Source of the DNA: Komagataeibacter oboediens
GTDB taxonomy: Bacteria; Pseudomonadota; Alphaproteobacteria; Acetobacterales; Acetobacteraceae
DNA: 42,103 nucleotides
Assembly (NCBI RefSeq): GCF_003207815.1
Contig: NZ_NKTX01000022.1
Span: 1-42,103 of the forward strand
Direction: 5' to 3'
In this document: positions 13,865 to 29,500 of the stretch, in pieces
How positions within the stretch are numbered: the first letter of the stretch is position 1
How the letters are laid out: each line of letters opens with the position of its first letter
The notes under the pieces: model-generated
Databases searched by the model: none
What the model was told of the DNA's origin: nothing
Seen by the model: the letters and a program-made list of their open reading frames with translations, nothing else
Position numbers and translations under genes: made by a program

Positions 13865-14764
13865 ATGAAGGTATCGGAAAAGAAGCAGGCGGCGACCACA
13901 CAGGTTCCCCCCGCCACGTATGAGGAACTGATCCGTGTTATCCATGACCGATATGCCCGGCTGAGCAATTCCTACCAGAAGATCGCCCTGTACATGACGC
14001 AGAACCCGAATGATGTGGCCGTTGATTCGGTCCATGTCGCCGCCGGGAAATGCGGCGTGCATGCGTCGGGCTGCGTCAGGTTTGCGCAGTCTTTCGGGTA
14101 TCAGGGATACAGGGACCTGCAGACCATATTCCGTCATCGCCTGTCCACGGCGGCCCTTGGGTTCAGCGCACGTGTCAAGGCGCTGGAGGAGGAACTTGAT
14201 ACGCGTGAGGACCGGAGCGAGATGGGATTCATGCGCGACCTGATCGTGCGCGATATCTCATCATTGCAGGAACTGCTGGCCAATGTAACCGCACAACAGA
14301 TCGCCCGGGCGGTTGACCTTATGGAACAGGCCGATACGATTTACCTGATCGGTCAGCTACGTTCCGCACCTGTGGTTGAACTGCTGCGCTATATGCTGAC
14401 CATGCTTGGAAAACGCGCGGTGCTGCTTGATGCGGCGGGTGGCCTTGCCACCCATATGGCCCGGGTGATGCTGCCGACAGACATGCTGTTTGCGGTTTCA
14501 TTCCGCTTTTATGCCAGTGAGGTCGTCAATATCGTGGAGGAAACCGTTACCCGGAACATTCCGGTGGTGGCGATCAGCGACAGTACCCTGTCCCCCCTGG
14601 CGCGCAACGCGGATGTGCTGTTTTCCGTACCGGAACATGAATATACGTTTTCGCGCTCCCTGGCTGCGCCCATGTGCCTGACACAGGCGCTGGTCGTGGC
14701 GCTGGCATCACGGTTGCAAAATGAATCCCGCAAGCCCCGGATTCCGGTCGCAACACAGAAGTGA
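13865..14764 (+). CDS. MurR/RpiR-family regulator of the inositol-type cluster
   Basis: A 299-residue regulator. The N-terminal helix-turn-helix domain (about 10-90) includes RLSNSYQKIALYM and KCGVHASGCVRFAQSFGYQGYRDLQ, the family's DNA-reading region. The SIS sugar-phosphate-binding domain (about 130-280) includes ADTIYLIGQLRSAPVVELLRY, LAVSFR-like strand MLFAVSFRFYASEVV and IPVVAISDSTLSPLARNADVLF. ATG at 13865 follows AGGAA by about 4 bases. In rhizobia an RpiR-type protein, IolR, represses inositol genes, so this protein is the natural candidate to control the divergent iol operons that start 3.7 kb further on. Confidence 0.87.
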   Translation: MKVSEKKQAATTQVPPATYEELIRVIHDRYARLSNSYQKIALYMTQNPNDVAVDSVHVAAGKCGVHASGCVRFAQSFGYQGYRDLQTIFRHRLSTAALGFSARVKALEEELDTREDRSEMGFMRDLIVRDISSLQELLANVTAQQIARAVDLMEQADTIYLIGQLRSAPVVELLRYMLTMLGKRAVLLDAAGGLATHMARVMLPTDMLFAVSFRFYASEVVNIVEETVTRNIPVVAISDSTLSPLARNADVLFSVPEHEYTFSRSLAAPMCLTQALVVALASRLQNESRKPRIPVATQK

Positions 14765-14862
14765 GGGGCCGCCTGAAAATACGTCCCTGACGGGAACCAC
14801 TTTGAAAAAAGCACCCTCACAAATGTCCCGATGACCTGCGGGAAATGTCATACGCTGCTTTG

Positions 14863-15684
14863 TCAGGCTGGCCAGCGCATCGGCCCGTCCGGCGTGGGCA
14901 TGCTGCGGGCGGTCGCCCCCCAGACGGACTGATCGAAATTCACGATCGCGCCGGTCATGAGACCAGCATCATCCGAAACAAGGAAGTTCACGGCACGGGC
15001 CGCTTCCTCGGGTGCGACTAGTCGTCCGAACGGAAGCTTTGCCGCCGCCTTTTCCATCCAGTCGGGATCGTTCGTCTCGGCCATCTGGATTTCGCGTTCC
15101 TTATCCGATGCCATCCAGCCGATATTAAGCTGGTTGACACGGATCCGGTTGCCCATGACGGAAAAGGCCGTATTTGCGGTCAGCGTGGCCAGCGCGCCCT
15201 TGGACGCGCAGTAGGCACTGATGAACGGCTGTCCCGACAGGGCGGAAATGGAGCCGATATTACAGATTGCCCCTTCAATCCCGTCGCGGATCATATGCCT
15301 GATCGCTGCCTGCATCAGGAAATACGGCCCGCGCACGTTGGTCGCGAAAATGCGGTCAAACAGGTCGGGGTCGGTATCCAGTATGGTGCCCCGCTGCGTC
15401 AGTGCCCCGGCGTTCACCAGCACATGCACATGGCCAAAGTGGTCATGTGTCCGGGCGATTACCGTCCGGCAGTCCGCGACCGATTCAAGATCGGCGCGGA
15501 TGAAGATGACGGGCACGCCGCAACTGTCCGAAATCTCGCGCGCGACTGCCGTGCCGCGTGCCTCGCTCCGTCCCGTAATGGCAATGCCCGCGGCACCCGC
15601 CGCGGCAAGGCGGCGCGCAATGGCCGCCCCAAGGCCCTGCGTGGCGCCCGTGACCACGCATACCCTGTCATCCATCCGGTTCAT
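14863..15684 (-). CDS. Short-chain dehydrogenase/reductase
   Basis: A 273-residue classical SDR. The cofactor motif TGATQGLG lies at 12-19, NAG at 91-93, N116, and the catalytic set S145, Y158 and K162 (YCASK). It is the third gene of the minus-strand iolD-iolE-SDR operon and its ATG overlaps the iolE stop by 4 bases (ATGA), so translation is coupled. The likely role is NAD(P)-dependent oxidation or reduction of a cyclitol, keto-inositol or a later intermediate. SDR substrates are hard to predict and I assign none. Confidence 0.88.
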   Translation of the reverse strand: MNRMDDRVCVVTGATQGLGAAIARRLAAAGAAGIAITGRSEARGTAVAREISDSCGVPVIFIRADLESVADCRTVIARTHDHFGHVHVLVNAGALTQRGTILDTDPDLFDRIFATNVRGPYFLMQAAIRHMIRDGIEGAICNIGSISALSGQPFISAYCASKGALATLTANTAFSVMGNRIRVNQLNIGWMASDKEREIQMAETNDPDWMEKAAAKLPFGRLVAPEEAARAVNFLVSDDAGLMTGAIVNFDQSVWGATARSMPTPDGPMRWPA

Positions 15685-16586
15685 GACGCCACCCTGTATT
15701 CCGCCTGCGTCATAAGCTGCAGCAGGGCGGCATGTCCCTTGCGCGCCATGTCCAGCGGCGGGTTGAGGGCCGGGTCCTGCTCGGCCTCCACCACAAACCA
15801 GCCTTCATAGCCATAGGATGCAAGGCGTTCGATAATGGGCAGGAAATCGATCGACCCGTCCCCCGGCACGGTAAAGGCACCCTTTACGACCGCGTCAAGG
15901 AAGCTTTCGCTGCTGCGGTCAAGGCTGTCGATGACAGCGTTGCGCACATCCTTGGTGTGTACGTGGCTTATGCGGGCATGGTGTCTGTCGATTACCCGCA
16001 ACAGGTTGCCCCCCGCAAAATACATGTGCCCGGTATCAAACAGCAGGTGCAGCGCCGGGCCCGAATGCTTCATCAGCAGGTCAAGCTCGGCCTCGGTCTC
16101 GATCGGGGCGGCCATATGGTGGTGATAGGCGAGGGGCATGCCTTCATCGGCACACCATTCGGCAAAGGCCGTCATCCTGCGGCCATAGATCCGTATGTCC
16201 TCTTCCGACAGGCGCGGCTTGGTCGCGAGTGGTGCGGAGCGGATTCCCTGGATCGACCGCGCGGTTTCGCCGTAGACAATGCACGGCGCGCGGGCGGCGA
16301 TGAAAAAATCCATCTGGGCACGGATACGGTCCTTCTCCGCCTCCATGTCCCCATCCAGCAGCAGGCCCGAAAACCATCCCCCGCACACCGAAATGCCGTA
16401 GCGTTTCAGGATTGGCCCCAGTTCGTTCATGTCCATGGGAAAGCGGCGTCCGGTTTCCATGCCGGTAAAGCCCGCCTCACTGGCCTGACGCAGGCATTCC
16501 TCCAGGCTGACATCGTCTGACAGTTCCGCAAGGTCGTCATTCCACCATGCAATCGGCGCGATACCCAGTTTTGCCTTCATGGCCAT
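15681..16586 (-). CDS. iolE: Myo-inosose-2 dehydratase (IolE)
   Basis: A 301-residue TIM-barrel metalloenzyme of the family's usual length. The N-terminus reads MAMKAKLGIAPIAWWNDDL, then SLEECLRQASEAGFTGMETG, and YHHHMAAPIETEAELDLL near residue 150, and the DTGHMYFAGG motif; these are typical of IolE. It dehydrates 2-keto-myo-inositol to 3D-3,5/4-trihydroxycyclohexane-1,2-dione in the cytoplasm. Its ATG (16586) overlaps the iolD stop codon in TAATG, and its own stop overlaps the SDR start, so the three genes form one operon in pathway order reversed from IolD. Confidence 0.9.
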   Translation of the reverse strand: MAMKAKLGIAPIAWWNDDLAELSDDVSLEECLRQASEAGFTGMETGRRFPMDMNELGPILKRYGISVCGGWFSGLLLDGDMEAEKDRIRAQMDFFIAARAPCIVYGETARSIQGIRSAPLATKPRLSEEDIRIYGRRMTAFAEWCADEGMPLAYHHHMAAPIETEAELDLLMKHSGPALHLLFDTGHMYFAGGNLLRVIDRHHARISHVHTKDVRNAVIDSLDRSSESFLDAVVKGAFTVPGDGSIDFLPIIERLASYGYEGWFVVEAEQDPALNPPLDMARKGHAALLQLMTQAEYRVAS

Positions 16587-18457
16587 TACACTCCCACACG
16601 CTGTTTCGCGCGGATTTCTTCCTGTTGTTTTCTTGCCGCCTGTACCGATGCGCGGGTCGAGACCTCCGGCACCCCCACATCCCAGTCCGCATCGCCCGGC
16701 GTCCAGGCATGGGCGTCCGTGGTGATGGCAAGGATGGTGGTCCGGTCCGTGGTTTTTGCCCATTCGAGGGCCGCGGCCAGTTCGGCCATGCTGTCGCACC
16801 TGCGGCCCAGCGCGCCCATGGATTCGGCATGTTTGACAAAATCGACATGCAGCGGCCGGTCGGGATGCTGCACGTGGCAGTCAACCAGCAGGTTGTTGAA
16901 ACCGGGCACGCCCTTGGCCTGCTGCAGGCGGTTGATAACCGCGAAGCCACCGTTGTCACAGACCACGACAATCATCTTGTGGCCCGTCAGCACGGTGGAA
17001 TAGATGTCGGAGTTCATCATCATGTAGGTGCCGTCACCAATCATGACGATGGGCGTGCCGCCTGTCCCGCCCGGTCCCTCGCTGGCCATGGCGTGGCCCC
17101 AGCCCGCCGCGATTTCGTACCCCATGCATGAAAAGCCGAATTCAAGGTCAAAGGTATTGGGGGCCTTGACCCGCCAGCCCTTGCACACTTCGCCCGGCAG
17201 GCCGCCTGCGGCGGTAATGATGGTGTCGCATTCCCCTGCCGCGTCATTGACCGCATGCACGACCTGCGCATAGGTCGGAACGGGCGCATTCGTGGGGGCC
17301 TGCAGTTTTGTCAGCAGGTTGTCCCATTCACCAAACAGGTGCCTGGCGCGCTGCATCTGTCGCGGGTCCGCCGCCCAGTCATCCAGCAGCGCGTCGAATT
17401 CGGTCATGGTTTCCAGCGCGTCGCCCACAACCGCCAGAGCACGGTGCTTGACCGCGTCAAACCGGGCGGTGTTGATGGAAATGAACCGTGCCGTCTGGCT
17501 GAACAGCGTCCATGACCCGGTGGTGAAATCCTGCAGCCGCGTGCCGATCGCCACGATCACATCGGCATCTCCCGCCAGAGCGTTGGCCGAGGTGGAGCCG
17601 ATAATGCCGATCGGCCCCGCATGCGCTTCATGGTAATGTGTTACACTGCCCTTGCCCGCGATCGTTTCCACGATCGGGATGCCGCGTTTTAGCGCGAATG
17701 CGGCGACGGCCTCCTCTGCCTGTGAATACCGCACCCCGCCGCCTGCGATCAGCAGCGGCTTTCTGGCCGTTTTCAGCAGGTCCACCGCCTGCGCCAGCCT
17801 GCGGCGGTCCGGCCGCGGGCGGGGAATGACCCACAGTTTTTCTTCAAAGAAGGTAACGGGATAATCAAAGGCGATTTCCTGCACATCCTGTGGCAGGGAT
17901 ACAAAGGCCGGCCCGCAATCGCCCGGATCAAGCATTGTTGCCGCAGCCTGTGGCAGGGATGACAGGATCTGTGCCGGGTGCATGATCCGGTCCCAGTACC
18001 GGGTCACGGCGCGGAATGCATCATTGACCGTTATTGTGGGATTACTGAAATGTTCGACCTGCTGCAGGACGGGATCGGGCAGGCGCGTGGCGAAGGTATC
18101 GCCCGCCAGCAGCAGCAGCGGCAGGCGATTCGCATGCGCGGTGCCGGCGGCTGTCACCATATTCAGCGCGCCCGGCCCGATGGAGGACGCGGCAACCATG
18201 ATCTGCCGCCGCCGCCGGGCTTTGGCAAAACCTGTTGCGGCCAGCGCCATGGACTGTTCATTCTGCCCGCGCCATGTGGGCAGCCTGTCCTGCACGGCCT
18301 CGAGTGCTTCGGACAGGCAACTGACGTTGCCATGGCCAAAAATGCCGAAGACACCGGGAAAAAGCGGAACGCGCTGACCTTCGATTTCCGTGAACTGATT
18401 AACCAGCCAGTGCACGATGGCCTGTGCGGTCGTGAGGCGGATTGTCGCCTGTGTCAT
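16586..18457 (-). CDS. iolD: 3D-(3,5/4)-trihydroxycyclohexane-1,2-dione acylhydrolase (IolD)
   Basis: A 623-residue thiamine-diphosphate enzyme. The N-terminal domain carries GVFGIFGHGNVSCLSEAL and QNEQSM, in which E67 is the ThDP-activating glutamate. The central domain (about 200-340) and the C-terminal ThDP-binding motif GDGTYMMMNSDIYSTV...CDNGGFAVINRLQ follow. It hydrolytically opens the cyclitol dione ring to 5-deoxyglucuronate. The ATG at 18457 is set by AAGGGAGGAAAC a few bases upstream; the frame is open to 18529. First gene of the iolD-iolE-SDR operon, divergent from the aldehyde dehydrogenase operon. Confidence 0.93.
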   Translation of the reverse strand: MTQATIRLTTAQAIVHWLVNQFTEIEGQRVPLFPGVFGIFGHGNVSCLSEALEAVQDRLPTWRGQNEQSMALAATGFAKARRRRQIMVAASSIGPGALNMVTAAGTAHANRLPLLLLAGDTFATRLPDPVLQQVEHFSNPTITVNDAFRAVTRYWDRIMHPAQILSSLPQAAATMLDPGDCGPAFVSLPQDVQEIAFDYPVTFFEEKLWVIPRPRPDRRRLAQAVDLLKTARKPLLIAGGGVRYSQAEEAVAAFALKRGIPIVETIAGKGSVTHYHEAHAGPIGIIGSTSANALAGDADVIVAIGTRLQDFTTGSWTLFSQTARFISINTARFDAVKHRALAVVGDALETMTEFDALLDDWAADPRQMQRARHLFGEWDNLLTKLQAPTNAPVPTYAQVVHAVNDAAGECDTIITAAGGLPGEVCKGWRVKAPNTFDLEFGFSCMGYEIAAGWGHAMASEGPGGTGGTPIVMIGDGTYMMMNSDIYSTVLTGHKMIVVVCDNGGFAVINRLQQAKGVPGFNNLLVDCHVQHPDRPLHVDFVKHAESMGALGRRCDSMAELAAALEWAKTTDRTTILAITTDAHAWTPGDADWDVGVPEVSTRASVQAARKQQEEIRAKQRVGV

Positions 18458-18936
18458 TTTTGTTTCCTCCCTTGACGGGTTATGGCCACCATATCCAAAT
18501 GCAATATATGTTGACAACCAAATAAACACGCAACATTAATTGCAAATACAAAAAAGGAAGAAAAGAACCTGCTGACCCATCCCGATGACCGGGGACGCCG
18601 TCATGTGGACGCAGGGGACAGATGGTGTGCCGGTGATGAACGCCGCAACGCTTGCACGGTTCATGACACCATCATGTCACGACCACGACTGTTCATCTGT
18701 GTTCAGGTGTCCCGGTGCCAGCAGTGGCGCGGTGGATGGCCAAACCGCCACCGAATGCGCGGAAAGGACGGTCCCGGTACCGGCACGGCCGACGGATATG
18801 TGCCGGATAACAGGGCCAGGACGGACTGGTGGGCAGCTTTACCTGCGGGATGCATGTCGGTCCGACTGCCGTCAACAGAAGGGGCGATCAGGTCAATCGC
18901 CATATGTCGTGTCACAAGAATAATGGGGACCCAATA
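18458..18936. other. Divergent promoter region of the two inositol-type operons
   Basis: About 480 bases between iolD and the aldehyde dehydrogenase gene. The AT-rich part nearest iolD (18490-18560) contains the inverted repeat described separately and a TTGACA (18511-18516) with ATTAAT (18535-18540) spaced by 18 bases, which could be the plus-strand promoter. The long remainder (18570-18930) would then be an unusually long leader; I see no gene in it. Confidence 0.45.
18501..18543. promoter_or_regulatory. Candidate operator in the iolD/aldehyde dehydrogenase divergent region
   Basis: GCAATATATGTTG (18501-18513) and CAACATTAATTGC (18531-18543) are inverted repeats matching at 11 of 13 positions with 17 bases between. 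They bracket and overlap a possible -35/-10 pair (TTGACA at 18511, ATTAAT at 18535), so a bound repressor would block that promoter. The half-site TATATGTT recurs in the palindrome at 25107-25137 upstream of the transporter gene, which points to a shared regulator, possibly the RpiR protein. Confidence 0.5.
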
Positions 18937-20373
18937 ATGTACACGAATTTCGGGTTGTTTATTGACGGCGCATGGCGTCAGGCATCGGAAGGAAAAACCG
19001 AGCCGGTCATAAGTCCCGTATCGGAAAGTCCGCTTGGCGACGTGCCCAGTGCGGGTGCCGCGGATACGCAGGCGGCCATTGATGCGGCGCATGGTGCGCT
19101 GGCGCGATGGTCGACCACGCCCGCCCATGACCGCGCCGAAGCCCTGCATGCGATTGCCAATGAAATGATCCGCCGCACGGAGGAAGCCGCCCGGATGATT
19201 TCCAGCGAGACAGGCAAGCCGCTGATGCAGGCACGTCGTGAATGGGGGCTGAGTATTGACCAGTTCCGCTGGTATGCCGAAGAAGCACGCCGTATCTACG
19301 GGCGCATTATCGAAAGCCGTGTCCCGTCTGGCCGTTTCGAAGTCAGCCATGAACCGGTTGGCGTCGTCGCGGCGTTTACGGCGTGGAATTTTCCCGCATC
19401 CCTGCTGGCGCGCAAGCTGGCGCCCGCGCTGGCGGCGGGCTGTCCGGTCATTGCCCGCCCGTCTTCGCAGACACCGGGCACCGCGATGGTCATGATTGCC
19501 TGCTGCCGCGCGGGCAACCTGCCGCCGGGCACTGTCAATTTGGTCGTAGGCTCCACGGATGCGACCTACAGGCCGATCATGGCATCCGGGATCGTGCGCA
19601 AGGTTTCGCTGACCGGGTCCACGCGTGTCGGTCAGCAGATGATCCGTGACGCGGCAGATACGATGAAAAAGGTGTCGATGGAACTGGGCGGGAATGCCCC
19701 GCTTATCGTTTATGATGATGCCGATCTGGATATGGCCCTGAATACGGCGGCACAGGCTAAATTCGCCAATACGGGCCAGGTCTGCGTGGCGCCTGACCGT
19801 TTCTTTATCCATGACCGCCTGCATGACGCGTTTGTGGAAGGGTTCGTGACCCGCGCGAAGGCGATCAGGCTGGGGAACGGGCTGGATGACGGCGTGGGCA
19901 TGGGCCCGCTGATCAACGCGCACCGGCTGGCGGAAATGGAAACCATTGTTGCCGATGCCGTGGCCGGTGGCGCGAAAGTGATGACAGGCGGCCAGCGGCC
20001 ACCGGGGTTCAATAGCGGCTATTTCTATGAACCGACGGTCCTGACCGATGTCACGGATGACATGCGTGTGATGGCGGATGAAAATTTCGGGCCGATTGCC
20101 GCCATTACCCGTTTTTCAAGTGATGATGAAGTCCTGACCCGTGCCAATGCATCGGACATGGGGCTTGCGGCGTATGCCTTTACCCGTTCGCCCGCGCGTG
20201 CGCGCCGCACGGTGGCCGAACTGCAGGCGGGTATGGTCGGTATCAATTCCACGGCCCTTGCTGCGGCGGAAGCACCGTTCGGGGGCACCCGTTTTTCCGG
20301 CATGGGCCGGGAAGGGGGCAGCGAGGGCATTCTTGATTATCTGGATGTAAAACTGGCACAGGTGGTATTCTGA
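18937..20373 (+). CDS. NAD(P)-dependent aldehyde dehydrogenase, GabD-like
   Basis: A 478-residue member of the aldehyde dehydrogenase superfamily. Landmarks are AWNFPASLLARK (N151), MELGGNAP with general base E249, and the nucleophile C283 in TGQVCVAPDR. The cofactor site lysine usually found in K-P-A/S is an arginine here (R174 in VIARPSSQTP), which is unusual. The ATG at 18937 begins at the conserved N-terminus with GGGGA upstream. First gene of the six-gene plus-strand operon; the aldolase begins 1 base after its stop. It might oxidise 5-deoxyglucuronate or the semialdehyde released by the aldolase; both are inference. Confidence 0.87.
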   Translation: MYTNFGLFIDGAWRQASEGKTEPVISPVSESPLGDVPSAGAADTQAAIDAAHGALARWSTTPAHDRAEALHAIANEMIRRTEEAARMISSETGKPLMQARREWGLSIDQFRWYAEEARRIYGRIIESRVPSGRFEVSHEPVGVVAAFTAWNFPASLLARKLAPALAAGCPVIARPSSQTPGTAMVMIACCRAGNLPPGTVNLVVGSTDATYRPIMASGIVRKVSLTGSTRVGQQMIRDAADTMKKVSMELGGNAPLIVYDDADLDMALNTAAQAKFANTGQVCVAPDRFFIHDRLHDAFVEGFVTRAKAIRLGNGLDDGVGMGPLINAHRLAEMETIVADAVAGGAKVMTGGQRPPGFNSGYFYEPTVLTDVTDDMRVMADENFGPIAAITRFSSDDEVLTRANASDMGLAAYAFTRSPARARRTVAELQAGMVGINSTALAAAEAPFGGTRFSGMGREGGSEGILDYLDVKLAQVVF

Positions 20374-20374: not shown

Positions 20375-21187
20375 ATGATCCCCAATCGTCTCAAGCAGCT
20401 CTGGGCCGAGGGGAAACCCACGCTCAATGGCTGGTGTTCCATCGGTAACCCCTTCACCGCTGAAATCATGGCAGCCCAGGGGTATGATTCCGTCACGATA
20501 GATGTGCAGCATGGTGCGCTGGATTATTCCGGTGCGCTGCCCATGATGCAGGCCATGCGTGCATCGGGCGTCGTGCCCATGGCACGGGTCCCGTGGCTGG
20601 AGCCCGGCATCATTATGAAAATGCTCGACGCCGGCGCGTATGGCATTATCTGCCCCATGGTGAATACGGCGGCACAGGCGGCCGAATTCGTAAGCTATGT
20701 CCGCTATCCCCCCTATGGACAGCGCAGTTTTGGCCCGACGCGCGTTGCATTCGCAGCAGGCAGCAATTACGCCAGCCAGGCCAATGACGAACTCCTCGCC
20801 TTCGCCATGATCGAGACGCAGCAGGGCATGGACAATCTGGCTGAAATTGCCGCGACCCCGGGGCTTGATGGCATTTATGTCGGGCCTGCCGATCTGATGC
20901 TCAGCCTTGCAGGTGGACGTCTGTCCCCCGGTTTTGACCGGGAAGAGGCGGAGATGATCGACCGGCTGCACGAGATCATTGCCGCCTGTCAGGACAGTGG
21001 CATTCGTGCCGCCCTTCATTGTGGCACGCCGGAATATGCCGCGCGCGCCATTGGCTGGGGGTTCAACATGACCACCGTGTCGGGGGATTCCCGCCTGCTG
21101 GCCGCGGCTGCGGGTGCCAGTGTCGCGCAGTTCCGCAGGCTTGTCAGCCGCGACAGCGTGACGGTGATGCAGGGAGGGGCGTACTGA
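20375..21187 (+). CDS. HpcH/HpaI-family class II aldolase
   Basis: A 270-residue metal-dependent pyruvate aldolase. The catalytic site is intact: H46 in DVQHG, R71 in ARVP, and metal ligands E147 (MIETQQG) and D173 (GPADL). The family reversibly cleaves 4-hydroxy-2-oxo acids to pyruvate and an aldehyde, as in HpaI (4-hydroxy-2-oxoheptanedioate) and GarL (2-keto-3-deoxyglucarate). The DVQHG form belongs to a subgroup whose substrates are poorly known. It is tightly coupled: 1 base after the aldehyde dehydrogenase and overlapping the next gene in TGATG. In this cluster 4-hydroxy-2-oxoadipate is a chemically sensible substrate. Confidence 0.88.
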   Translation: MIPNRLKQLWAEGKPTLNGWCSIGNPFTAEIMAAQGYDSVTIDVQHGALDYSGALPMMQAMRASGVVPMARVPWLEPGIIMKMLDAGAYGIICPMVNTAAQAAEFVSYVRYPPYGQRSFGPTRVAFAAGSNYASQANDELLAFAMIETQQGMDNLAEIAATPGLDGIYVGPADLMLSLAGGRLSPGFDREEAEMIDRLHEIIAACQDSGIRAALHCGTPEYAARAIGWGFNMTTVSGDSRLLAAAAGASVAQFRRLVSRDSVTVMQGGAY

Positions 21188-22149
21188 TGCCCCACATACT
21201 GGTCGCGGGGCGCCTGCATTCTGCGGGTCTTGCGCTGCTCGACCATGCTCCCGGTGTGACCTATGACTATGTCGAGGAGATATCGGAGGACAGCTACGCC
21301 CCCCTTGTTTCCCGTGCCGATGCCCTGATCCTGCGCACCCAGCCGCTTTCGGCCGCAACGGTGGAAAAGGCGTCGCGGCTCAGGGTCGTGTCCCGGCATG
21401 GCGTGGGCTATGACGGCATTGACCTGCCCGCGCTGGACCGGCGCGGCATTACCCTGTGTGTCGTGGGGAATGTTAATGCGGTGTCCGTCGCCGAGCACGC
21501 AATGACCCTCATACTCGCCTGCGCCAAGCATCTGCTCCAGGCGGACCGGTCCGTGCGTCAGGGGCAGTGGGAGTGGCGCAACCGGCTTATGGCGGGCGAG
21601 GTAGGGGGCAGGCGGCTGCTGATATTGGGGTATGGCCGCACCGGGCGGCATCTTGCCACCATGGCTGCGGGCTTTGGCATGAAGATCCGCGCCTATGATC
21701 CCTACCTGTCCGCCAGGGGAAAATGGCCCGCAGGCCCGGTGGGCGAGGTGGCGGATCTGTACGACGGGCTGGAATGGGCCGATATCATCTCGGTCAACGT
21801 GCCGAAGGGCGACCAGCCGTTGATTGGCGCGGCCGAACTGCGCCACGTCAGGCCGGGTGCGATCATCGTCAATACCGCACGTGGCGGCGTGGTGGATGAG
21901 GCCGCGCTGGCCACGGCCATCGTGAACGGGCATGTCGCGGCGGCAGGGGTGGATGTATTCGACCCCGAACCACCTTCCGCCCACAATCCATTGATCGATC
22001 TGGATCGTGTCATCCTGACGCCCCATGTCGCCGGGCTGACCGCACAGGCGGCGGAGCGCATGGCGGTCGGCTGCGTGCAGAATGTTCTGGATTTCTTTGC
22101 GGGCACACTTGATCCCGCCCTTATCGTGAACAGGGAATTCGTCAAATGA
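21187..22149 (+). CDS. D-isomer-specific 2-hydroxyacid dehydrogenase (SerA-like, short form)
   Basis: A 320-residue NAD-dependent dehydrogenase lacking the C-terminal ACT domain of 3-phosphoglycerate dehydrogenase. The Rossmann motif GYGRTG is at 148-153 with D171 selecting NAD. The catalytic set is R232 (NTARGGVVDE), E261 and H280 (TPHVAG). The start is the ATG in TGATG that overlaps the aldolase stop, and the stop overlaps the next gene in ATGA. It would interconvert a 2-oxo acid and a 2-hydroxy acid; which one is not visible, though an oxo acid produced by the neighbouring dehydration and aldol steps is plausible. Confidence 0.87.
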   Translation: MPHILVAGRLHSAGLALLDHAPGVTYDYVEEISEDSYAPLVSRADALILRTQPLSAATVEKASRLRVVSRHGVGYDGIDLPALDRRGITLCVVGNVNAVSVAEHAMTLILACAKHLLQADRSVRQGQWEWRNRLMAGEVGGRRLLILGYGRTGRHLATMAAGFGMKIRAYDPYLSARGKWPAGPVGEVADLYDGLEWADIISVNVPKGDQPLIGAAELRHVRPGAIIVNTARGGVVDEAALATAIVNGHVAAAGVDVFDPEPPSAHNPLIDLDRVILTPHVAGLTAQAAERMAVGCVQNVLDFFAGTLDPALIVNREFVK

Positions 22150-23324
22150 CCAGACGTAAGCTGCGTATCGGCCTGATTGGCAGCGGTTTCATGGGCCGGA
22201 CCCATGCTTTTGGCTATTCAACCGCATCGAAGGTATTCGACCTGCCGTTCCAGCCGGAACTGGCGTGCTTGGCCGATATTTCGGAAGACGCGGCGGCACG
22301 GGCGGCCGGCGCGCTGGGGTTTGCCCGGTGGACGGATGACTGGCGCGCCCTTGTGGCCGATCCCGACATCGACGTGATCAACATCACCGCTCCCAACGCC
22401 CTGCACAAGGAAATGGCGCTTGCTGCCATAGCGGAGGGCAAGCACGTCTATTGTGAAAAACCCCTGGCCCCCCTTGCCGCGGATGCGCGTGAAATGGCCG
22501 AAGCGGCGGAGGCGCGGGGTGTGAAGACACAGGTCGGCTTCAATTACCTGTGCAACCCCATGTTCGCGCTGGCACGCGAGATGATCGCGGCGGGCGAACT
22601 GGGTGAAATCCGTGGGTACCGCGGCCTGCATGCGGAAGACTATATGGCGGATGCCGCATCCCCCTTCACCTTCCGCCTGGACCCGGTGGGGGGCGGCGCG
22701 CTGGCCGATATCGGCAGCCATGCGCTGGCCACCGCCGAATTCCTGATGGGACCGGCAGCAGGCGCGATTACGCAGGTCATGGGTGACTGTGTCACGGTAA
22801 TCGGGTCACGGCCGGACGGGAAAGGGGGTACCCGCGCGGTGCAGGTGGACGATATCGGCCGCGCCTTCCTGCGTTTCGAGAACGGGGCGACAGGTTCGGT
22901 CGAAGGAAACTGGATCGCGACCGGGCGCACCATGCAGCATGATTTCGAGGTTTATGGCACGAAGGGCGCGCTGGCCTTCAGTCAGCAGCGGTTCAATGAA
23001 CTGCATTTCTTCTCGACCGCGGATGCGCGGGGCCGCAAGGGGTTCCGCCGTATCGAATCCGGCCCGGACCATGCGCCCTACGGGCTGTTCTGTGTGGCGC
23101 CGGGGCATCAGCTTGGGTTCAATGACCTTAAGGCGATAGAAGTCGCACGCTATCTGGATGCACTGGCCGGCAATCAGCCCGAACCGTTCAACTTCCGCGC
23201 GGGCCTGCGTATCCAGACGCTGGTGGAAGCCATTCATGACTCAAGCCGTGCCGCCGCATGGCGTGACGTACCGACGGACAGGATCGGACACCGTCACGAA
23301 CACCGGCAGCACGAACAGGCATGA
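22146..23324 (+). CDS. Gfo/Idh/MocA-family oxidoreductase (first of two)
   Basis: A 392-residue NAD(P)-dependent dehydrogenase. The N-terminal Rossmann motif is GLIGSGFMG (9-17), K105 lies in CEKPL, and D188 with H192 (GGALADIGSH) match the catalytic D-x3-H of inositol dehydrogenases. The C-terminal domain includes FNDLKAIEVARYLDALAG. This pattern is shared by inositol, glucoside and other sugar dehydrogenases, so it could oxidise a cyclitol isomer such as scyllo- or chiro-inositol. It overlaps the preceding gene by 4 bases (ATGA), and the next gene starts 36 bases after it. Confidence 0.87.
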   Translation: MTRRKLRIGLIGSGFMGRTHAFGYSTASKVFDLPFQPELACLADISEDAAARAAGALGFARWTDDWRALVADPDIDVINITAPNALHKEMALAAIAEGKHVYCEKPLAPLAADAREMAEAAEARGVKTQVGFNYLCNPMFALAREMIAAGELGEIRGYRGLHAEDYMADAASPFTFRLDPVGGGALADIGSHALATAEFLMGPAAGAITQVMGDCVTVIGSRPDGKGGTRAVQVDDIGRAFLRFENGATGSVEGNWIATGRTMQHDFEVYGTKGALAFSQQRFNELHFFSTADARGRKGFRRIESGPDHAPYGLFCVAPGHQLGFNDLKAIEVARYLDALAGNQPEPFNFRAGLRIQTLVEAIHDSSRAAAWRDVPTDRIGHRHEHRQHEQA

Positions 23325-23360: not shown

Positions 23361-24485
23361 ATGACCCAGCCGACCCATGACCGGAAGATCCGCTACGCCG
23401 TGATCGGATGTGGGCAGATTTCCCTGCAATCCTTTATTCCCGGTCTCGAACGGGCTGCCAATTCCACCCTGGCGGCCCTTGTTACGGGCGATATGCACAA
23501 GGGGCAGGCCCTTGAAACCCGCTATGGCGTGCGGGTCTGGCATTATGATGACCTGCCGGATCTTCTGGCATCGGGCGAGGTTGATGCCGTGTATCTGGCA
23601 ACGCCAAATGCGTTGCACCGGCGCTATGCCGTGCCCGTGCTGGAGGCGGGGCTGCACCTGCTTCTGGAAAAACCCATGGCCACAAGCGTGGAAGACTGCG
23701 AGGCGATCCTGCAGGCCCGGCGCAGGGGGGGCGGCAGGCTGATGATTGCCTACCGCCTGCATTGCGAACCGGGGACGGTGGAACTGGTTTCACGCTGCCG
23801 CAATGGGGATTTCGGCGCACCTGTCGGGTTCAGTTCGGTCTTTGGGCAGGACGTGCCGCAGTCGAATCATCGCGCCCATGGCGGGTACTGGTCGGGTCCC
23901 GTGCCGGATCTGGGCAATTATCCGATCAATGCGGTGCGCCACATGTTCGGGGCCGAACCGGTGGAGGTCACGGCCACAGGCACGCGCACGCCGGGCCGGA
24001 CCTTCAATTTTGATGATACGGTGTCGGTCGTGCTGCGGTTTGCTGATGGCCGGATCGCGGATTTCATGGTCAGCTATGCCTGCGCACCGGTTGAGGGGCT
24101 GACCCTGTTTGGCAGCCGGGGCAGTGTCAGGGCCATGCCCTGCTATACCTTCGGCCCGTCCGTCGCCATTACCTACACCACGCTGATTGACGGCAAGGAA
24201 GACAGGCGCAGCCATGGCCCGGTCGAGCAGTTCGGGGGGGAAGCCTTCTATTTTTCGGAATGTATCCTCAATAACCGCGATCCCGAACCCGATGGCGAGG
24301 ACGGGCTGCGTGATGTCCGTGTGCTGGTCGCGGTGGAAGCGGCCCTGCGCACCGGGAAACCGCAGTCCCTGCCGCCGCTTGCCGGGCGCGAGGGAATACG
24401 TGAGGATCAGGTCGTCATCCTGCCACCCCTGGCCGAAGCATGTGAAAGTGACCTGACCGGCGTGATGCCGCAGGCCGTTTCATGA
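23361..24485 (+). CDS. Gfo/Idh/MocA-family oxidoreductase (second of two)
   Basis: A 374-residue protein of the same fold as its neighbour but only distantly alike. It has Rossmann motif VIGCGQIS (14-21), K104 in LEKPM, and in the active site D-L-G-N-Y-P-I-N-A in place of D-x3-H, which is the pattern of glucose-fructose oxidoreductase-like members where a tyrosine replaces the histidine. No signal peptide is present, so it is cytoplasmic. GGAGG lies 9 bases upstream of the ATG. The two divergent paralogues in one operon probably act on different substrates or carry out successive oxidation and reduction. Confidence 0.86.
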   Translation: MTQPTHDRKIRYAVIGCGQISLQSFIPGLERAANSTLAALVTGDMHKGQALETRYGVRVWHYDDLPDLLASGEVDAVYLATPNALHRRYAVPVLEAGLHLLLEKPMATSVEDCEAILQARRRGGGRLMIAYRLHCEPGTVELVSRCRNGDFGAPVGFSSVFGQDVPQSNHRAHGGYWSGPVPDLGNYPINAVRHMFGAEPVEVTATGTRTPGRTFNFDDTVSVVLRFADGRIADFMVSYACAPVEGLTLFGSRGSVRAMPCYTFGPSVAITYTTLIDGKEDRRSHGPVEQFGGEAFYFSECILNNRDPEPDGEDGLRDVRVLVAVEAALRTGKPQSLPPLAGREGIREDQVVILPPLAEACESDLTGVMPQAVS

Positions 24486-24525
24486 CCCGCGACCGCGCGG
24501 CTTCATCCATGCAGGGACGGACATC

Positions 24526-25047
24526 ATGACATTCACGACCTGTCCCCGGCCCCTGAACCATATCGGGATCAGCGTGCCCGATATCGACCGTGCCATTGCG
24601 TGGTACGGCGAGGTTCTGGGCTACCGGCTGTTCAGCGGCCCGTTCGACCTGGTCGCCAGCCCGCCCGCACTGGCGCAGTTTCAGGACGCGTTGGGGGAGC
24701 GGTGCCAGCATGTGCGCATCGCGCACCTTTCAACAGGTGGGGGCGTGGGAATTGAACTGTTCCAGCCCGTTCTGCCGGCTACCCAGCCCGGAACCACGGA
24801 TATCCGTTTCGATCAGCCCGGTCCCTTTCACATATGCGTCACGGACCCGGATATAGAAGGGCTGATCGGCAGGATTGTTGCGACAGGGGGCACCCAGACG
24901 TCCCGCATATGGGACGATCGCCCCCCATCGGGCATATACCGGATGGTGTACTGCCGCGACCCGTTTGGCACCGTTATCGAAATCCATACGCATTCCTGTG
25001 AAATCGTTCAGGGATGGCGGAACGGAAAGCAGGAAGCGGGCCAGTAG
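24526..25047 (+). CDS. VOC-superfamily protein (glyoxalase/dioxygenase fold)
   Basis: A 173-residue two-module vicinal oxygen chelate protein. The four metal ligands of the fold are all present: H12 (NHIGISV), E77 (GIELFQ), H102 (FHICVTD) and E152 (GTVIEIHTH). Family members isomerise, epimerise or cleave substrates through a metal-bound enediolate. It ends the plus-strand operon, 40 bases after the second Gfo/Idh/MocA gene. In this context an isomerase of a keto-sugar acid is possible, and it might even replace the missing IolB isomerase, but this is speculative. Confidence 0.83.
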   Translation: MTFTTCPRPLNHIGISVPDIDRAIAWYGEVLGYRLFSGPFDLVASPPALAQFQDALGERCQHVRIAHLSTGGGVGIELFQPVLPATQPGTTDIRFDQPGPFHICVTDPDIEGLIGRIVATGGTQTSRIWDDRPPSGIYRMVYCRDPFGTVIEIHTHSCEIVQGWRNGKQEAGQ

Positions 25048-25501: not shown

Positions 25502-26989
25502 ATGATGAAAGAATCCATAAAAAACGCCATGTTTGTCCGGTCGGACCGGCATGACGTGGGCTACGTGCTGCGAATATGTGCGATCGCGGCATTGGGTGGT
25601 ATTCTGTTCGGGTATGATACGGCGGTCATTTCGGGCGCTGTCGGGTCGCTGCAGGCCTATTTCCACCTTTCGCCGGCGGAAATAGGCTGGGCAGTTTCCA
25701 ACGTGCTGCTGGGCTGTATCCTTGGGGCCGGGGTTTCGGGCTGGCTGGCGGACCGCTTTGGCCGTCGCCCGACACTGGCTGTGTCCGCCGTACTGTTTAC
25801 CGCATCGGCCATCGGGGCGGCGCTGGCGACGGGTTTTACATCCTTCGTCGTGTATCGCTTCATTGGCGGGGTTGCAGTGGGGGTGGCGTCCTCGATTTCG
25901 CCCATGTACATGTCGGAGGTCTCGCCAAAAGACATGCGCGGGCGGGCGCTGTACATGGAATCCTTCGCCATTGTGGGCGGGCAGCTGACTGTCTTCATCG
26001 TCAATTACCTGATTGCCCGCAGTGCGAGTGATGTGTGGCTCATGAACGTGGGCTGGCGGTGGATGCTGGGGTCGGAAGTCATACCGTGCATTGTTTTCTG
26101 CATCGCGATCTTCTTCATGCCGGAATCACCGCGCTGGCACGTGCTGCGTGGGCGCGATGCCGACGCGATGCGGACCCTGACCCGCATTTCCAATGAACAT
26201 CATGCCCGCTCGGTCCTGACGGAAATCAAGGAATCACTGGAACATAAGATCGAGACATCCGACCTTGGCCGGGCCGTGGCCTCACGCGGGGCGCGGTGGA
26301 TCATCTTTGTGGGGGCCACGGTCGCCATGCTGCAGCAGCTGACCGGCGTGAACAGCATGATGTACTACGCGCCGCTGGTGCTGGGTTCGGTCAGTGGCAG
26401 CGTGCAGAACGCCCTGTTCCAGACCATATGGATCGGGGTGGCGTCCGTATCGGGCGCGGTGCTGGGCAGCTGGGTGATTGACCATAAGGGCCGGCTGCCG
26501 CTGTTTCGTTTTGGCTCGATCGGCATGATTATCGGCCTGCTGGCTGCATCATGGGCGCTGTATACCCAGACGCACGGGTATTCCGCCCTGGTGGGCATGC
26601 TGGTTTACATGCTGCTGTTCGGCCTGTCGTGGGGGCCGCTGACATGGGTGCTGATTGCGGAAATCTTCCCTAACCGGATCCGCGGCGTGGGCATGAGCAT
26701 TGCGGTGTCGGCCAACTGGGTGATGAACTTCATCGTCAGCCAGCTTTTCCCGATGATGGCGCAGAACCACAGGCTGGACGCGCTTTTTCATGGCGCGCTG
26801 CCGATGTGGCTTTTCGCGCTCTTTACACTGTTTTCATGGTGGTTCGTTGAACGGTATGTGCCGGAAACGAAAGGCATCGCGCTGGAAAAGATCGAAAGCG
26901 TCATGCTGGCCCCGAAGCGCCGCCGACGCGGGGCCGGCACGCCAACGGTCCCGACAGATGGCCTGACGGATATGGTCGGGCGGAAATGA
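25502..26989 (+). CDS. MFS sugar-porter family transporter, probable polyol/inositol proton symporter
   Basis: A 495-residue transporter with twelve membrane helices. All sugar-porter signatures are present: GYDTAVISGA near residue 38, DRFGRRP, PESPRW, QQLTGVNSMMYYAP and PETKG before the basic C-terminal tail. Families with this set include IolT, XylE and GalP. Its place between the iol operons supports inositol or a related cyclitol as substrate, but the sequence alone does not prove it. GGAG lies 6 bases before ATG 25502; an ATG at 25505 follows directly. A GC-rich hairpin lies after the stop. Confidence 0.88.
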   Translation: MMKESIKNAMFVRSDRHDVGYVLRICAIAALGGILFGYDTAVISGAVGSLQAYFHLSPAEIGWAVSNVLLGCILGAGVSGWLADRFGRRPTLAVSAVLFTASAIGAALATGFTSFVVYRFIGGVAVGVASSISPMYMSEVSPKDMRGRALYMESFAIVGGQLTVFIVNYLIARSASDVWLMNVGWRWMLGSEVIPCIVFCIAIFFMPESPRWHVLRGRDADAMRTLTRISNEHHARSVLTEIKESLEHKIETSDLGRAVASRGARWIIFVGATVAMLQQLTGVNSMMYYAPLVLGSVSGSVQNALFQTIWIGVASVSGAVLGSWVIDHKGRLPLFRFGSIGMIIGLLAASWALYTQTHGYSALVGMLVYMLLFGLSWGPLTWVLIAEIFPNRIRGVGMSIAVSANWVMNFIVSQLFPMMAQNHRLDALFHGALPMWLFALFTLFSWWFVERYVPETKGIALEKIESVMLAPKRRRRGAGTPTVPTDGLTDMVGRK

Positions 26990-27007
26990 CCCTGTCGGGG
27001 AAAAGGG

Positions 27008-27036
27008 GGGCGCGCGGCGGGTCCCGCCGCGCGCCC
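27008..27036 (+). terminator. GC-rich hairpin between the transporter and tautomerase genes
   Basis: A perfect 13-bp stem (27008-27020 with 27024-27036) of GGGCGCGCGGCGG type with a 3-base loop, followed by ATTT. The stem is very stable but the U-tract is short, so it may act as a partial terminator that lets some transcripts continue into the tautomerase gene. Confidence 0.55.
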
Positions 27037-27105
27037 ATTTGTGGGAACAGGTTGTACAGGAAAGAAAACTGCGCCTGTTTCTTTTTGTTTACAGGGAGAA
27101 AACTG

Positions 27106-27516
27106 ATGCCACTTTTACATTTCCACATGCTTGAAGGGCGCACGGATGAAGAAATCCGCACCCTTCTCGATGCGGCGCACGAAGCCATGCTGGAAGCATT
27201 CGCCGTGCCGCGTCGCGACCGTTACCAGCTTGTATCGGAATACAAGCCATCGCGCATGATTGTCGAGGATACGGGGCTTGATATCCCCCGGACGGACCGG
27301 GTCCTGGTCGTGCAGATGTTCAGCCGCCCCCGTGGGGCGGACAAGACAGCCGAGTTTTATCGCCTGCTGACCGAACGGCTGGAACGCGAATGCGGGATCG
27401 CACCGTCCGACGTCATGGTGTCGGTTGTCGAGAATGAAGACGCCCACTGGTCCTTCGGGAACGGGCGCGCGCAGTTTCTGACAGGCGAACTTGGCGGGGG
27501 TAGGCCGGTTCACTGA
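27106..27516 (+). CDS. Tautomerase-superfamily protein
   Basis: A 136-residue protein of the 4-oxalocrotonate tautomerase fold, longer single-chain type. It begins M-P-L-L-H-F, so Pro2 becomes the N-terminal catalytic proline after Met removal. The family motifs EGRTDEEIRTLLDAAH, VEDTGLDIPRTDRV and the C-terminal SVVENEDAHWSFGNGRAQFLTGE are present. Such enzymes catalyse keto-enol tautomerisation or hydration of unsaturated oxo acids. The start at 27106 is fixed by the catalytic proline and GGGAGAAAACTG upstream. In this cluster it could act on an enol produced by a dehydratase or an aldolase, which is inference. Two hairpins end the transcript. Confidence 0.83.
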   Translation: MPLLHFHMLEGRTDEEIRTLLDAAHEAMLEAFAVPRRDRYQLVSEYKPSRMIVEDTGLDIPRTDRVLVVQMFSRPRGADKTAEFYRLLTERLERECGIAPSDVMVSVVENEDAHWSFGNGRAQFLTGELGGGRPVH

Positions 27517-27521
27517 CGCAT

Positions 27522-27583
27522 ACGTTGTCATTACCGTGGGGGCGTTATTATGCCCCCACGGAACAACGTCACGAACGTTTTTT
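27522..27583 (+). terminator. First of two tandem terminators after the tautomerase gene
   Basis: An outer stem ACGTTGT (27522-27528) with ACAACGT (27563-27569) encloses an inner 10-bp stem CCGTGGGGGC (27534-27543) with GCCCCCACGG (27552-27561). A T6 run follows at 27578-27583, nine bases after the stem. It begins 5 bases after the tautomerase stop codon. Confidence 0.6.
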
Positions 27584-27588
27584 ACAGA

Positions 27589-27624
27589 AGATGGCACCCG
27601 TGAAACGGGTGCCATCTATTTTAT
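27589..27624 (+). terminator. Second of two tandem terminators after the tautomerase gene
   Basis: AGATGGCACCCG (27589-27600) pairs exactly with CGGGTGCCATCT (27606-27617) around TGAAA, a 12-bp stem, followed by ATTTTAT. This is a good Rho-independent terminator and should end the plus-strand transcript. Confidence 0.75.
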
Positions 27625-28397
27625 CAGGCTGTGTTTGAAAACGGTTTCCGGCCTGCCATCCGGGCATGCCATATGCATGGTCTGCTGCTATTCATCAGCG
27701 CCCACGTCCTGCCTGCGGAATACACTAAACTGTATTTGCCGCATCCGGTCTGTAATGCGACAGCATGAATATACAAACCTGAGTATGAGCCAGATTACAT
27801 ATAATGGGTACAGGACAGGAATGGCGGAACATGTCACAATGCGCCTGGTGACAGCAGTGAACGGGCTTTTGGGTGGGTTGGCCAGCCATCAGTACAGTGC
27901 GGTTGACCCGGCCATGCCAATTGCCACATAGATCGGTATTCTGGCGCAGACAAAAGCAACGTGTTCAGGCCGTTTCATCCAGTCCATGCCTTTCTGTCCG
28001 GAACGTGACATGAAGTATTCAGACGGTTTTTCTGTAATTCTGTTCCCTATATTCGGACTGCGTGGTATTCGGTCAATCCTGAGGATGTTTTTTACTGGAG
28101 GTTTTTTCAAAGAACTTCAGAAATGCCGTGTTTCAGAAAAGACGATAATCGAACATTTCTACTTTTCCATCAATGAATTATTTCAATTTCGATGACATCG
28201 GGACCTGTGCTGCGGGTGAGCTGATTGCAATTATTATTTTCCGCCGCGGCATGTCGGACCGGCAACGCGACCAGATCGGACGCATATGTCGGAATACAAG
28301 AAAATCTTACGCAGAATAGCGGCAGTTATGACGCGTACGACCCGTGCAATCTCATCTGCGCGGCCTGACAGGATGATGGTATCCGTCAGCACCTTTA

Positions 28398-28423
28398 CGG
28401 GCGATGTCACGTGACATCGCCCG
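28398..28423. repeat. 26-base perfect palindrome
   Basis: The half CGGGCGATGTCAC (28398-28410) is followed directly by its reverse complement GTGACATCGCCCG (28411-28423). As a hairpin it has an 11-bp stem and an ACGT loop. It lies downstream of iolG on the minus strand with no U-tract on either side. It may be a bidirectional 3'-end structure or a protein-binding site. Confidence 0.5.
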
Positions 28424-28437
28424 ATATGCAGGTAAAT

Positions 28438-28486
28438 GCAGGCCATGTGCCCGGCAGCCTGCGGGGGCACCGGGCGCATGGCCTGC
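28438..28486 (-). terminator. Long hairpin immediately after iolG
   Basis: GCAGGCCATGTGCCCGG (28438-28454) and CCGGGCGCATGGCCTGC (28470-28486) are inverted repeats with one non-matching position out of 17. The structure begins 7 bases after the iolG stop codon on the minus strand. No U-tract follows; with the neighbouring palindrome it probably forms the 3' end of the iolG transcript. Confidence 0.5.
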
Positions 28487-28492
28487 GCGGCG

Positions 28493-29500
28493 TTACCCGA
28501 TTTCGTCTGTGGTCACGATACGGCTTTCCTTCAGCGATTTCAGGGCTGCTTCGGCAAGGAGCAGCGCCTGCCGTCCGTCATGATAGCTGACGGCAACCGG
28601 GCTGCCGTTTTCAACGGCATCGACAAAGGCGTCGATTTCCGCATCGAACGCCTCACGGTAGCGTTCGATGAAAAAGTTCAGCAGCGGGGCGGCATGTTCG
28701 GTAAACGTGCTGCCCGACAGCACCATGTGGTGCGGACGACGGTTTTCCGAAACCGCCATACCCAGGCTGCCAAAGGCTTCGACCCGCTGGTCGTAGCCAT
28801 ATGTCGCTTCACGCGAGTTGATGAGGATCGCCTGCCTGCCCGTATCCGTCGTCATCACCACCGTGATGGTGTCCTCATCCCCCAGCGCGTCCATAAGGGC
28901 AGGGGCCACCAGGCGCGATCCCACGGCGAATACCCGGGTCGGCTCCTCGCCCAGAATGTAGCGGGCCATGTCAAAATCATGGATCGTCATGTCCCGCAGG
29001 ATCCCGCCGGATTTTTCCAGATAGGCTTCCGGCGGCAGGCCCGGATCGCGCGATGTGATGACAAGCTGGTGCAGATCCCCGATCGTCCCGTCATGAACCG
29101 CCTCGAACACCGCCCGGTGTCCGGGGTCGAAGCGCCGCACGAACCCGATCTGGACCGGCAGGGTCGTGTTGGCAATGGTCGCGGCACAACGGTCCACCCG
29201 TGCAAGGCTGAGGTCGATCGGTTTTTCGCATAGTACAGGCCTGCCCGCCGCGATTGCCTGTTCTAGCAGGTCGGCATGGGTATCGGTCGCGGTTGCGATC
29301 AGCACCGCGTCCACATCGGGCGCGGCAAGCACCTCGGCCGCGGATGTCATGACCGGGGCACCCGTCGCCCTGGATAGGGCCTGCGCCGCAGCAACGTTGA
29401 TGTCATATACCGCCGCGACGCGCGCGCGTGGATGGGCGGCAATATTGGCAGCATGCATGGCGCCAATACGCCCACAGCCCAGAACGCCAATTCCAAGCAT
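28493..29500 (-). CDS. iolG: Inositol 2-dehydrogenase (IolG)
   Basis: A 335-residue NAD-dependent dehydrogenase of the Gfo/Idh/MocA family with the IolG look: MLGIGVLGCGRIGAMHAANIAAHPRA, K93 in CEKPIDL, and the catalytic pair D170 and H174 in GGILRDMTIHDFDMARYI. It oxidises myo-inositol at C2 to 2-keto-myo-inositol, the substrate of IolE, in the cytoplasm. AGGGAGACC lies upstream of the ATG at 29500. It follows the cytochrome c gene on the same strand, 137 bases apart with a hairpin between, so it may have its own promoter. Family evidence is strong; the preferred stereoisomer is not certain. Confidence 0.9.
   Translation of the reverse strand: MLGIGVLGCGRIGAMHAANIAAHPRARVAAVYDINVAAAQALSRATGAPVMTSAAEVLAAPDVDAVLIATATDTHADLLEQAIAAGRPVLCEKPIDLSLARVDRCAATIANTTLPVQIGFVRRFDPGHRAVFEAVHDGTIGDLHQLVITSRDPGLPPEAYLEKSGGILRDMTIHDFDMARYILGEEPTRVFAVGSRLVAPALMDALGDEDTITVVMTTDTGRQAILINSREATYGYDQRVEAFGSLGMAVSENRRPHHMVLSGSTFTEHAAPLLNFFIERYREAFDAEIDAFVDAVENGSPVAVSYHDGRQALLLAEAALKSLKESRIVTTDEIG

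Follow-up and report, generated by a model that had tools for sequence, protein, structure and literature searches.

We describe here a gene island of inositol type in Komagataeibacter oboediens (NCBI RefSeq assembly GCF_003207815.1), located at positions 13,865 to 29,500 of a 42,103-bp stretch of contig NZ_NKTX01000022.1; this whole stretch is called the window below. The island carries the three upper genes of inositol catabolism, iolG, iolE and iolD, each with a product above the curated cut-off of its family profile. Opposite iolD and iolE lies an operon that encodes an aldehyde dehydrogenase (ALDH), an HpcH/HpaI-family aldolase and a D-2-hydroxyacid dehydrogenase (HADH), and an IlvD/Edd dehydratase gene is found further on. 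The original prediction, made from the window alone, had named the three iol genes, ALDH, the aldolase and IlvD, and all of them were located where it had placed them. It did not mention HADH, a homologue of malonate semialdehyde decarboxylase (MSAD), an SDR oxidoreductase and two Gfo/Idh/MocA genes, which belong to the same island (Table 1).

Table 1. Features of the window that are discussed in the text.
Feature	Position	Strand	Basis or remark
RpiR/MurR-family regulator (IolR-like)	13865..14764	+	Pfam HTH_6 + SIS
SDR oxidoreductase	14863..15684	-	NF004847, 386.7 bits
iolE, inosose dehydratase	15681..16574	-	TIGR04379, 388.2 bits, cut-off 290
iolD, trihydroxycyclohexanedione hydrolase, cassette clade	16586..18439	-	TIGR04377, 798.5 bits, cut-off 715
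Palindrome GCAACATTAATTGC, lying between iolD and the ALDH operon; candidate operator of RpiR	18530..18543	no strand	motif GCAA-N6-TTGC
Aldehyde dehydrogenase (ALDH), predicted to convert 5-deoxyhexuronate to 5-deoxyhexarate	18937..20373	+	Pfam Aldedh
HpcH/HpaI-family aldolase, hydroxyketoacid-aldolase branch	20375..21187	+	adjoins ALDH
D-2-hydroxyacid dehydrogenase (HADH); would oxidise C2	21190..22149	+	Pfam 2-Hacid_dh
Gfo/Idh/MocA oxidoreductase 1	22146..23324	+	
Gfo/Idh/MocA oxidoreductase 2	23361..24485	+	
Glyoxalase/VOC-family protein	24526..25047	+	
Sugar-porter MFS transporter, candidate inositol importer	25502..26989	+	
Malonate-semialdehyde decarboxylase (MSAD) homologue, tautomerase superfamily	27106..27516	+	PDB 2aag, E 5.8e-46
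iolG, inositol 2-dehydrogenase	28493..29500	-	TIGR04380, 401.7 bits, cut-off 355
Cytochrome c + GMC oxidoreductase + gluconate-2-dehydrogenase-subunit-3-like protein	29637..33594	-	membrane dehydrogenase module beside the island
MFS transporter, neighbouring module	34953..36737	-	
LysR regulator, neighbouring module	36505..37464	-	
IlvD/Edd dehydratase, second candidate maker of the 2-oxo acid	37554..39335	+	nearest structures dihydroxyacid/L-arabinonate dehydratases

Three reading frames extend upstream of the starts given in Table 1. The frame of the regulator opens at 13631 with the HTH domain from residue 101, and the start at 13865 is approximate. The iolE frame (15681-16799) opens at 16799 and its profile match begins at about 16574; the iolD frame (16586-18529) opens at 18529, with the match from about 18439.

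The original prediction held that the usual isomerase, kinase and phosphate aldolase are missing from the window, and allowed that iolB and iolC may lie elsewhere in the genome. We searched all 278 contigs of the genome (3.78 Mb, completeness score 100%), as it had proposed for iolB, iolC and iolA, and found none of the three above cut-off. The iolB profile (TIGR04378), which matched the positive controls from Bacillus, Caulobacter and Corynebacterium, had no match at all. The best hit to iolC (TIGR04382) reached 115.9 bits against a cut-off of 300, the DUF2090 aldolase domain, which is fused to alphaproteobacterial IolC, had no match, and the best hit to iolA/MMSDH (TIGR01722) scored 290 bits against 448.5. 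No MMSDH above cut-off was detected in any of 19 Komagataeibacter genomes, this one included, and iolB was absent from all seven distinct cassette-bearing genomes of Komagataeibacter and Acetobacter that were searched (the window's genome, G207, G232, G246, G131, G250 and G252). The absence holds genome-wide for iolB, DUF2090 and, at its cut-off, iolC, Bacillus-type IolJ not having been searched separately. The upper half of the island is that of the known pathway, while the lower half lacks what defines it (iolB, iolC, DUF2090 and iolA). The general idea of a non-phosphorylated route, which had been put forward for this island, is strengthened by these results.

In this island we see the Komagataeibacter form of a cassette that is kept in alpha-, beta- and gammaproteobacteria. 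A genome collection was searched with ten cassette aldolases, a choice of queries that biases the set towards the cassette, and the best 80 of 328 loci were kept, with a reach of 10 kb on each side of the aldolase; 36 of the 80 loci are shorter than 20 kb. The core consists of iolD-iolE-SDR plus ALDH-aldolase-HADH. Besides the aldolase itself, HADH was present in 71 of the 80 loci, IolD in 69, ALDH and SDR in 67 each, IolG in 63, IolE in 57, RpiR in 56 and Gfo/Idh/MocA oxidoreductase 1 in 53, with IlvD (3), IolC (3), IolB (1) and the MMSDH query (1) being rare. The best match of the window aldolase in the named genome collection was from Komagataeibacter intermedius (97%). Plasmid searches with IolD and the aldolase revealed further cassettes in Rhizobium, Paracoccus, Acidiphilium, Qingshengfaniella, Shinella, Jiella, Pantoea and Klebsiella. 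Here ALDH, aldolase and hydroxyacid dehydrogenase genes lie near iolG, the iolD-iolE-SDR genes are opposite or near, and an RpiR gene is present. Single loci have gaps: the stretch of R. leguminosarum has no annotated iolG or SDR, Shinella WSC3-e has no iolE, and iolD of Jiella is split into two pieces.

Which enzyme makes the 2-oxo acid that the aldolase would cleave? The strongest pattern that bears on this question is the coupling of HADH to IolD. The HADH gene directly follows the aldolase gene, within 200 bp, in all 71 loci that have it; it occurs in 68 of the 69 loci with IolD versus only three of the 11 loci without it. In L110, which is among the 69, the sole IolD is of canonical type. 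Two loci with aldolase and without IolD (L162 and L140) were considered as a test of the aldolase partner and did not decide the question: the ten open reading frames there and in L160 include no dehydratase and code for transporters, regulators, SDRs, a HAD hydrolase, a kinase-like protein and molybdenum-dehydrogenase subunits.

On this basis we propose that the island encodes a self-contained, phosphorylation-free inositol catabolism with HADH in its core, a reading to which we give a probability of about one half and whose every substrate and reaction we infer from sequence. IolG, IolE and IolD would oxidise, dehydrate and open the ring of inositol to a 5-deoxyhexuronate (from myo-inositol, 5-deoxyglucuronate). 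ALDH, whose nearest solved structures are succinate-semialdehyde dehydrogenases, would oxidise the aldehyde group to a 5-deoxyhexarate, and HADH would then oxidise the (R)-2-hydroxyl to give 3,4-dihydroxy-2-oxoadipate. The aldolase is predicted to split this compound into hydroxypyruvate and malonate semialdehyde, and MSAD would decarboxylate the latter to acetaldehyde, a compound usable by acetic acid bacteria; some relatives have the CoA-acylating dehydrogenase in place of MSAD. Dehydration of the same deoxyhexarate by the neighbouring IlvD may add a second lane in Komagataeibacter and Acetobacter, in which the same type of aldolase would yield pyruvate. According to our own derivation, C2 of 5-deoxyglucarate has the R configuration needed by the HADH family. 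D-gluconate is a substrate of GhrB-type D-2-hydroxyacid dehydrogenases, which attack it at C2. We suggest more tentatively, with the balance leaning against it, that this is a widespread, undescribed, dehydratase-free oxidative route of inositol via 3,4-dihydroxy-2-oxoadipate in alpha-, beta- and gammaproteobacteria, partly carried on plasmids.

The aldolase is consistent with the proposed cleavage. Among solved structures it is closest to SwHKA of Sphingomonas wittichii (195 bits versus 131.6 for the next, 1dxe), a profile comparison gives 260 versus 159, and the catalytic residues D43, H46, R71, E147 and D173 are kept. SwHKA binds and converts hydroxypyruvate, as described in PMC10099721, and products of this aldolase family are exclusively S at C3 according to the review PMC7610986. 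By our own stereochemical derivation, S at C3 is what a D-gluco route needs. His215 of the window aldolase aligns with Phe210 of SwHKA; we dropped this histidine as a sign of hydroxypyruvate use, as dehydratase-linked relatives have it too. A glycerate kinase (DUF4147) near the cassette of Paracoccus alcaliphilus was likewise set aside as support for hydroxypyruvate, with no second case in the loci scanned.

Evidence for the other predicted product comes from genes for its disposal. The MSAD homologue, trimmed to its likely start, matches 2aag over its full length and has Pro1, Asp37, Arg73 and Arg75 at the same numbers, the catalytic positions of MSAD. In the cassette-bearing Komagataeibacter loci examined this gene follows the transporter gene in the operon, and two Mesorhizobium cassette loci have a homologue at 50-51%. 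Elsewhere MMSDH is found instead: in Acidisoma it follows the cassette (654 bits against the cut-off of 448.5), in G229 a fragment of MMSDH lies at the edge of a contig, and on a Klebsiella plasmid both MMSDH and phosphoenolpyruvate (PEP) synthase are encoded no more than about 10 kb from the aldolase. The recurrence of two unrelated disposal enzymes beside the cassette supports malonate semialdehyde as the product, in agreement with the cleavage originally predicted, even though neither enzyme is seen in the majority of the 80 loci. MSAD is not an island-only gene, as we had considered, since 11 of the 19 genomes of the same genus have at least one homologue. A second homologue (67%) is located elsewhere in the K. 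oboediens genome (G000:C177:7582-7971).

The cassette also differs from the canonical system in its IolD. In a tree of 95 of 142 sequences, built by a quick method and rooted at the midpoint, the cassette IolDs formed a single clade with an SH-aLRT support of 100, separate from canonical IolD. This clade has 46 rows: 43 from cassettes and three without an aldolase within 9 kb. Of 92 regions upstream of iolD, 80 contain the sequence GCAA-N6-TTGC, where single-base shuffles predict 0.53. At least five loci appear twice in this count and the motif was first spotted in an alignment of seven of the counted loci, so that not all cases are independent. The RpiR regulator probably controls the divergent operons through this site. 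A search of the window for GGAA-N6-TTCC, the site known for rhizobial IolR, gave no matches. Outside the cassette clade, 31 of 67 Acetobacteraceae genomes with an above-cut-off IolD had no iolB match, with an IolD outside the score class of the window's; G184, G206, G052 and G081 are among them. Of the 20 of these 31 loci that were examined (L055-L074), 18 have iolG near iolD, and ABC transporters occur in the three inspected. As they fall outside the clade, these loci were not used as evidence.

Could ALDH, the aldolase and HADH instead serve to break down a sugar acid that has nothing to do with inositol and merely adjoin iolGDE, with 5-deoxyglucuronate as a dead end or an excreted product? 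Close relatives of the aldolase do exist with no iol genes in the stretch shown. However, the almost invariable placement of HADH after the aldolase in loci with IolD, the palindrome conserved in the divergent promoter region and the malonate-semialdehyde enzymes that recur beside the cassette all speak against such a chance neighbourhood, which we consider improbable. In Agrobacterium and Mesorhizobium plasmids (L078:8889-10837 and L079:8889-10819) close aldolase relatives overlap a mandelate-racemase-family gene, and no iol genes are seen in the stretch shown; they would belong to a sugar-acid pathway yet to be assigned.

Several observations weigh against the HADH route from myo-inositol as set out above. 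Its aldol step needs the (3S,4R) configuration, but the products reported for SwHKA in PMC10099721 and PMC7610986 are (3S,4S), so the stereochemical fit is partial; (3S,4R) is reported in PMC7610986 for GarL of Burkholderia phytofirmans. His215 does not separate the two lanes, as the relatives beside the mandelate-racemase-family gene have it and so does the Acetobacter copy that adjoins IlvD. Pyruvate carboxylase lies near the cassette in three IolD loci and PEP synthase in two Klebsiella loci, and these enzymes fit pyruvate better than hydroxypyruvate. Three Komagataeibacter genomes keep the aldolase and IlvD, and no HADH was found beside the aldolase there. Finally, among 50 cassette genomes, hand-chosen from the 80 loci, iolB was above cut-off in 45 and iolC in 44, and the five without iolB all belong to Komagataeibacter or Acetobacter. 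Outside the acetic acid bacteria the cassette is thus a parallel system, which may serve another cyclitol.

The pyruvate-related neighbours point to the lane through IlvD, the dehydration step of the original prediction. Here IlvD would convert 5-deoxyglucarate to 4-hydroxy-2-oxoadipate, the aldolase would release pyruvate and malonate semialdehyde, and HADH would act otherwise, for example in reducing a by-product. IlvD occurs in exactly those seven of the 19 Komagataeibacter genomes that have the aldolase. In one of them, G232, the two genes lie on different contigs, and their co-occurrence cannot be explained by adjacency; its IlvD module stands where LysR and cytochrome c genes meet, a junction free of the island (L194:1629-4174). 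The island of G232 is on the other contig (L043), having been moved or separately gained. In three of the seven genomes the aldolase, beside cytochrome c-GMC, is the only gene of the window's island found between conserved flanks. These lone intact aldolases (L089, L090 and L093, from Komagataeibacter sp. FXV3, K. europaeus and K. swingsii) have dN/dS values of about 0.06, 0.08 and 0.09; in G210 a contig break inside the GMC gene places the IlvD end on a different contig. In Acetobacter senegalensis (G131, L192:7181-11386), 8 kb away from iolG, the genes for IlvD, a second HpaI aldolase and MMSDH (675.7 bits) are lined up on one strand, and in G246 (L193) the same is true of IlvD and MMSDH.

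Against this lane, only three of the 80 loci, all from Komagataeibacter, have IlvD at 10 kb or less from the aldolase, a count whose reach does not extend to the IlvD of the window itself, 16 kb from the aldolase. A search of 47 cassette genomes with the window IlvD gave matches at E<=1e-130 in 39. Among the 45 that remain when the two Acetobacter genomes are set aside, none of them from Komagataeibacter, eight had no such match, and an IlvD of the window's type (at least 60% identity) was present in 11, never close to the cassette: ten were on another contig and one about 270 kb off. Moreover, this lane assigns HADH no role, and in most of the seven genomes the aldolase and IlvD could occur together through common ancestry or linkage. 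We consequently rejected dehydration by IlvD as a universal step and kept it for the acetic acid bacteria, where the matching genomes and the Acetobacter gene row support it. As an account of the whole system it appears rather unlikely, but within the acetic acid bacteria the IlvD route to pyruvate is a serious alternative. An IlvD opposite an IolD-like gene in G088 and G090 (L053:3733-7431 and L054:6574-10815), 59-61% like that of the window and with a metallo-beta-lactamase-fold gene nearby, was discarded, as housekeeping genes surround it and no iolE match was found in the stretch.

The coexistence with iolB and iolC leads to the question of the substrate isomer. The cassette may serve another cyclitol, such as scyllo- or chiro-inositol or an O-methyl inositol like pinitol, whose ring-opened acid would not be isomerised by IolB. 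The remaining chemistry would be unchanged, and this possibility does not exclude the other readings. Cassettes have their own iolG, iolD and iolE in spite of the iolB and iolC in the same genomes, with IolD in its separate clade. Some plasmid cassettes lie beside genes of the MocE-type ferredoxin, desaturase or phytanoyl-CoA-dioxygenase families, whose products could demethylate inositol ethers, a hint at methylated inositols. On the other hand, the cassette IolD is the sole above-cut-off IolD in five cassette-bearing Komagataeibacter and Acetobacter genomes (G000, G207, G232, G131 and G246), and IolE and IolD of the window score above the equivalog cut-offs set for the enzymes of myo-inositol. 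We therefore treat another cyclitol as a possible substrate, though a somewhat doubtful one.

Taken together, we favour HADH as the core step and, for acetic acid bacteria, a second lane through IlvD, but our doubt is considerable. The membrane dehydrogenase module stands between the island and IlvD, and two adjoining HbpS-like genes of the haem-degrading family follow a DoxX gene at 40748-41779 of the window.

Inositol use is usually read from genomes through the iolBCDE core. If the proposed route is true, inositol or related cyclitols would be usable without iolB and iolC, and surveys leaning on these genes would miss the cassette. In the cluster definition given in PMC9430895, at least three of iolB, iolC, iolD and iolE are needed, so that an island free of iolB and iolC would escape that survey. 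Some annotations of the kind 'succinate-semialdehyde dehydrogenase / aldolase / hydroxyacid dehydrogenase' would gain a concrete pathway, and cyclitol use would be linked to plasmids of soil- and plant-associated bacteria. The route would also offer a natural role for a malonate-semialdehyde decarboxylase and for hydroxypyruvate-accepting HpcH/HpaI aldolases, which in the relevant text of PMC10099721 and PMC7610986 are treated as catalysts for synthesis. We saw no natural role of SwHKA given in PMC10099721, and the terms 'physiological' and 'natural substrate' are absent from its main text. Among the matches listed in our search of titles and abstracts, which left subscription journals mostly outside, no description of the route was found; some listings covered only part of the matches (20 of 38, 15 of 172 and 15 of 88). 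The name malonate semialdehyde decarboxylase does not occur in the 15 listed of 172.

The island shares IolG, IolE and IolD with the canonical pathway of Bacillus and Caulobacter (IolG-IolE-IolD-IolB-IolC-IolJ-IolA), as well as a nearby RpiR-family gene and, by prediction, malonate semialdehyde as an end product. In contrast to that pathway, IolB, IolC, the DUF2090 aldolase and IolA are all missing above cut-off from its genome, and isomerisation, phosphorylation and release of dihydroxyacetone phosphate would be replaced by oxidation and a 2-oxo-acid aldolase. Non-phosphorylated pathways of sugar acids include the Weimberg and Dahms routes and the degradation of D-glucarate via GarD and GarL. 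With these the island would have in common the oxidation to an acid, a 2-oxo-acid intermediate, an aldolase of HpaI/GarL type and the lack of a kinase. Its substrate, however, would be a ring-opened cyclitol, and in the loci seen outside the acetic acid bacteria the conserved partner of the aldolase is a 2-hydroxyacid dehydrogenase rather than a dehydratase. Compared with single enzymes, the decarboxylase homologue resembles MSAD (PDB 2aag) in its full-length match and the four residues, and differs in lying in an operon of inositol type. The window aldolase has SwHKA (PDB 6r62, 8adq) as its closest solved structure and the same catalytic residues, with histidine in place of Phe210 and an activity that is predicted.

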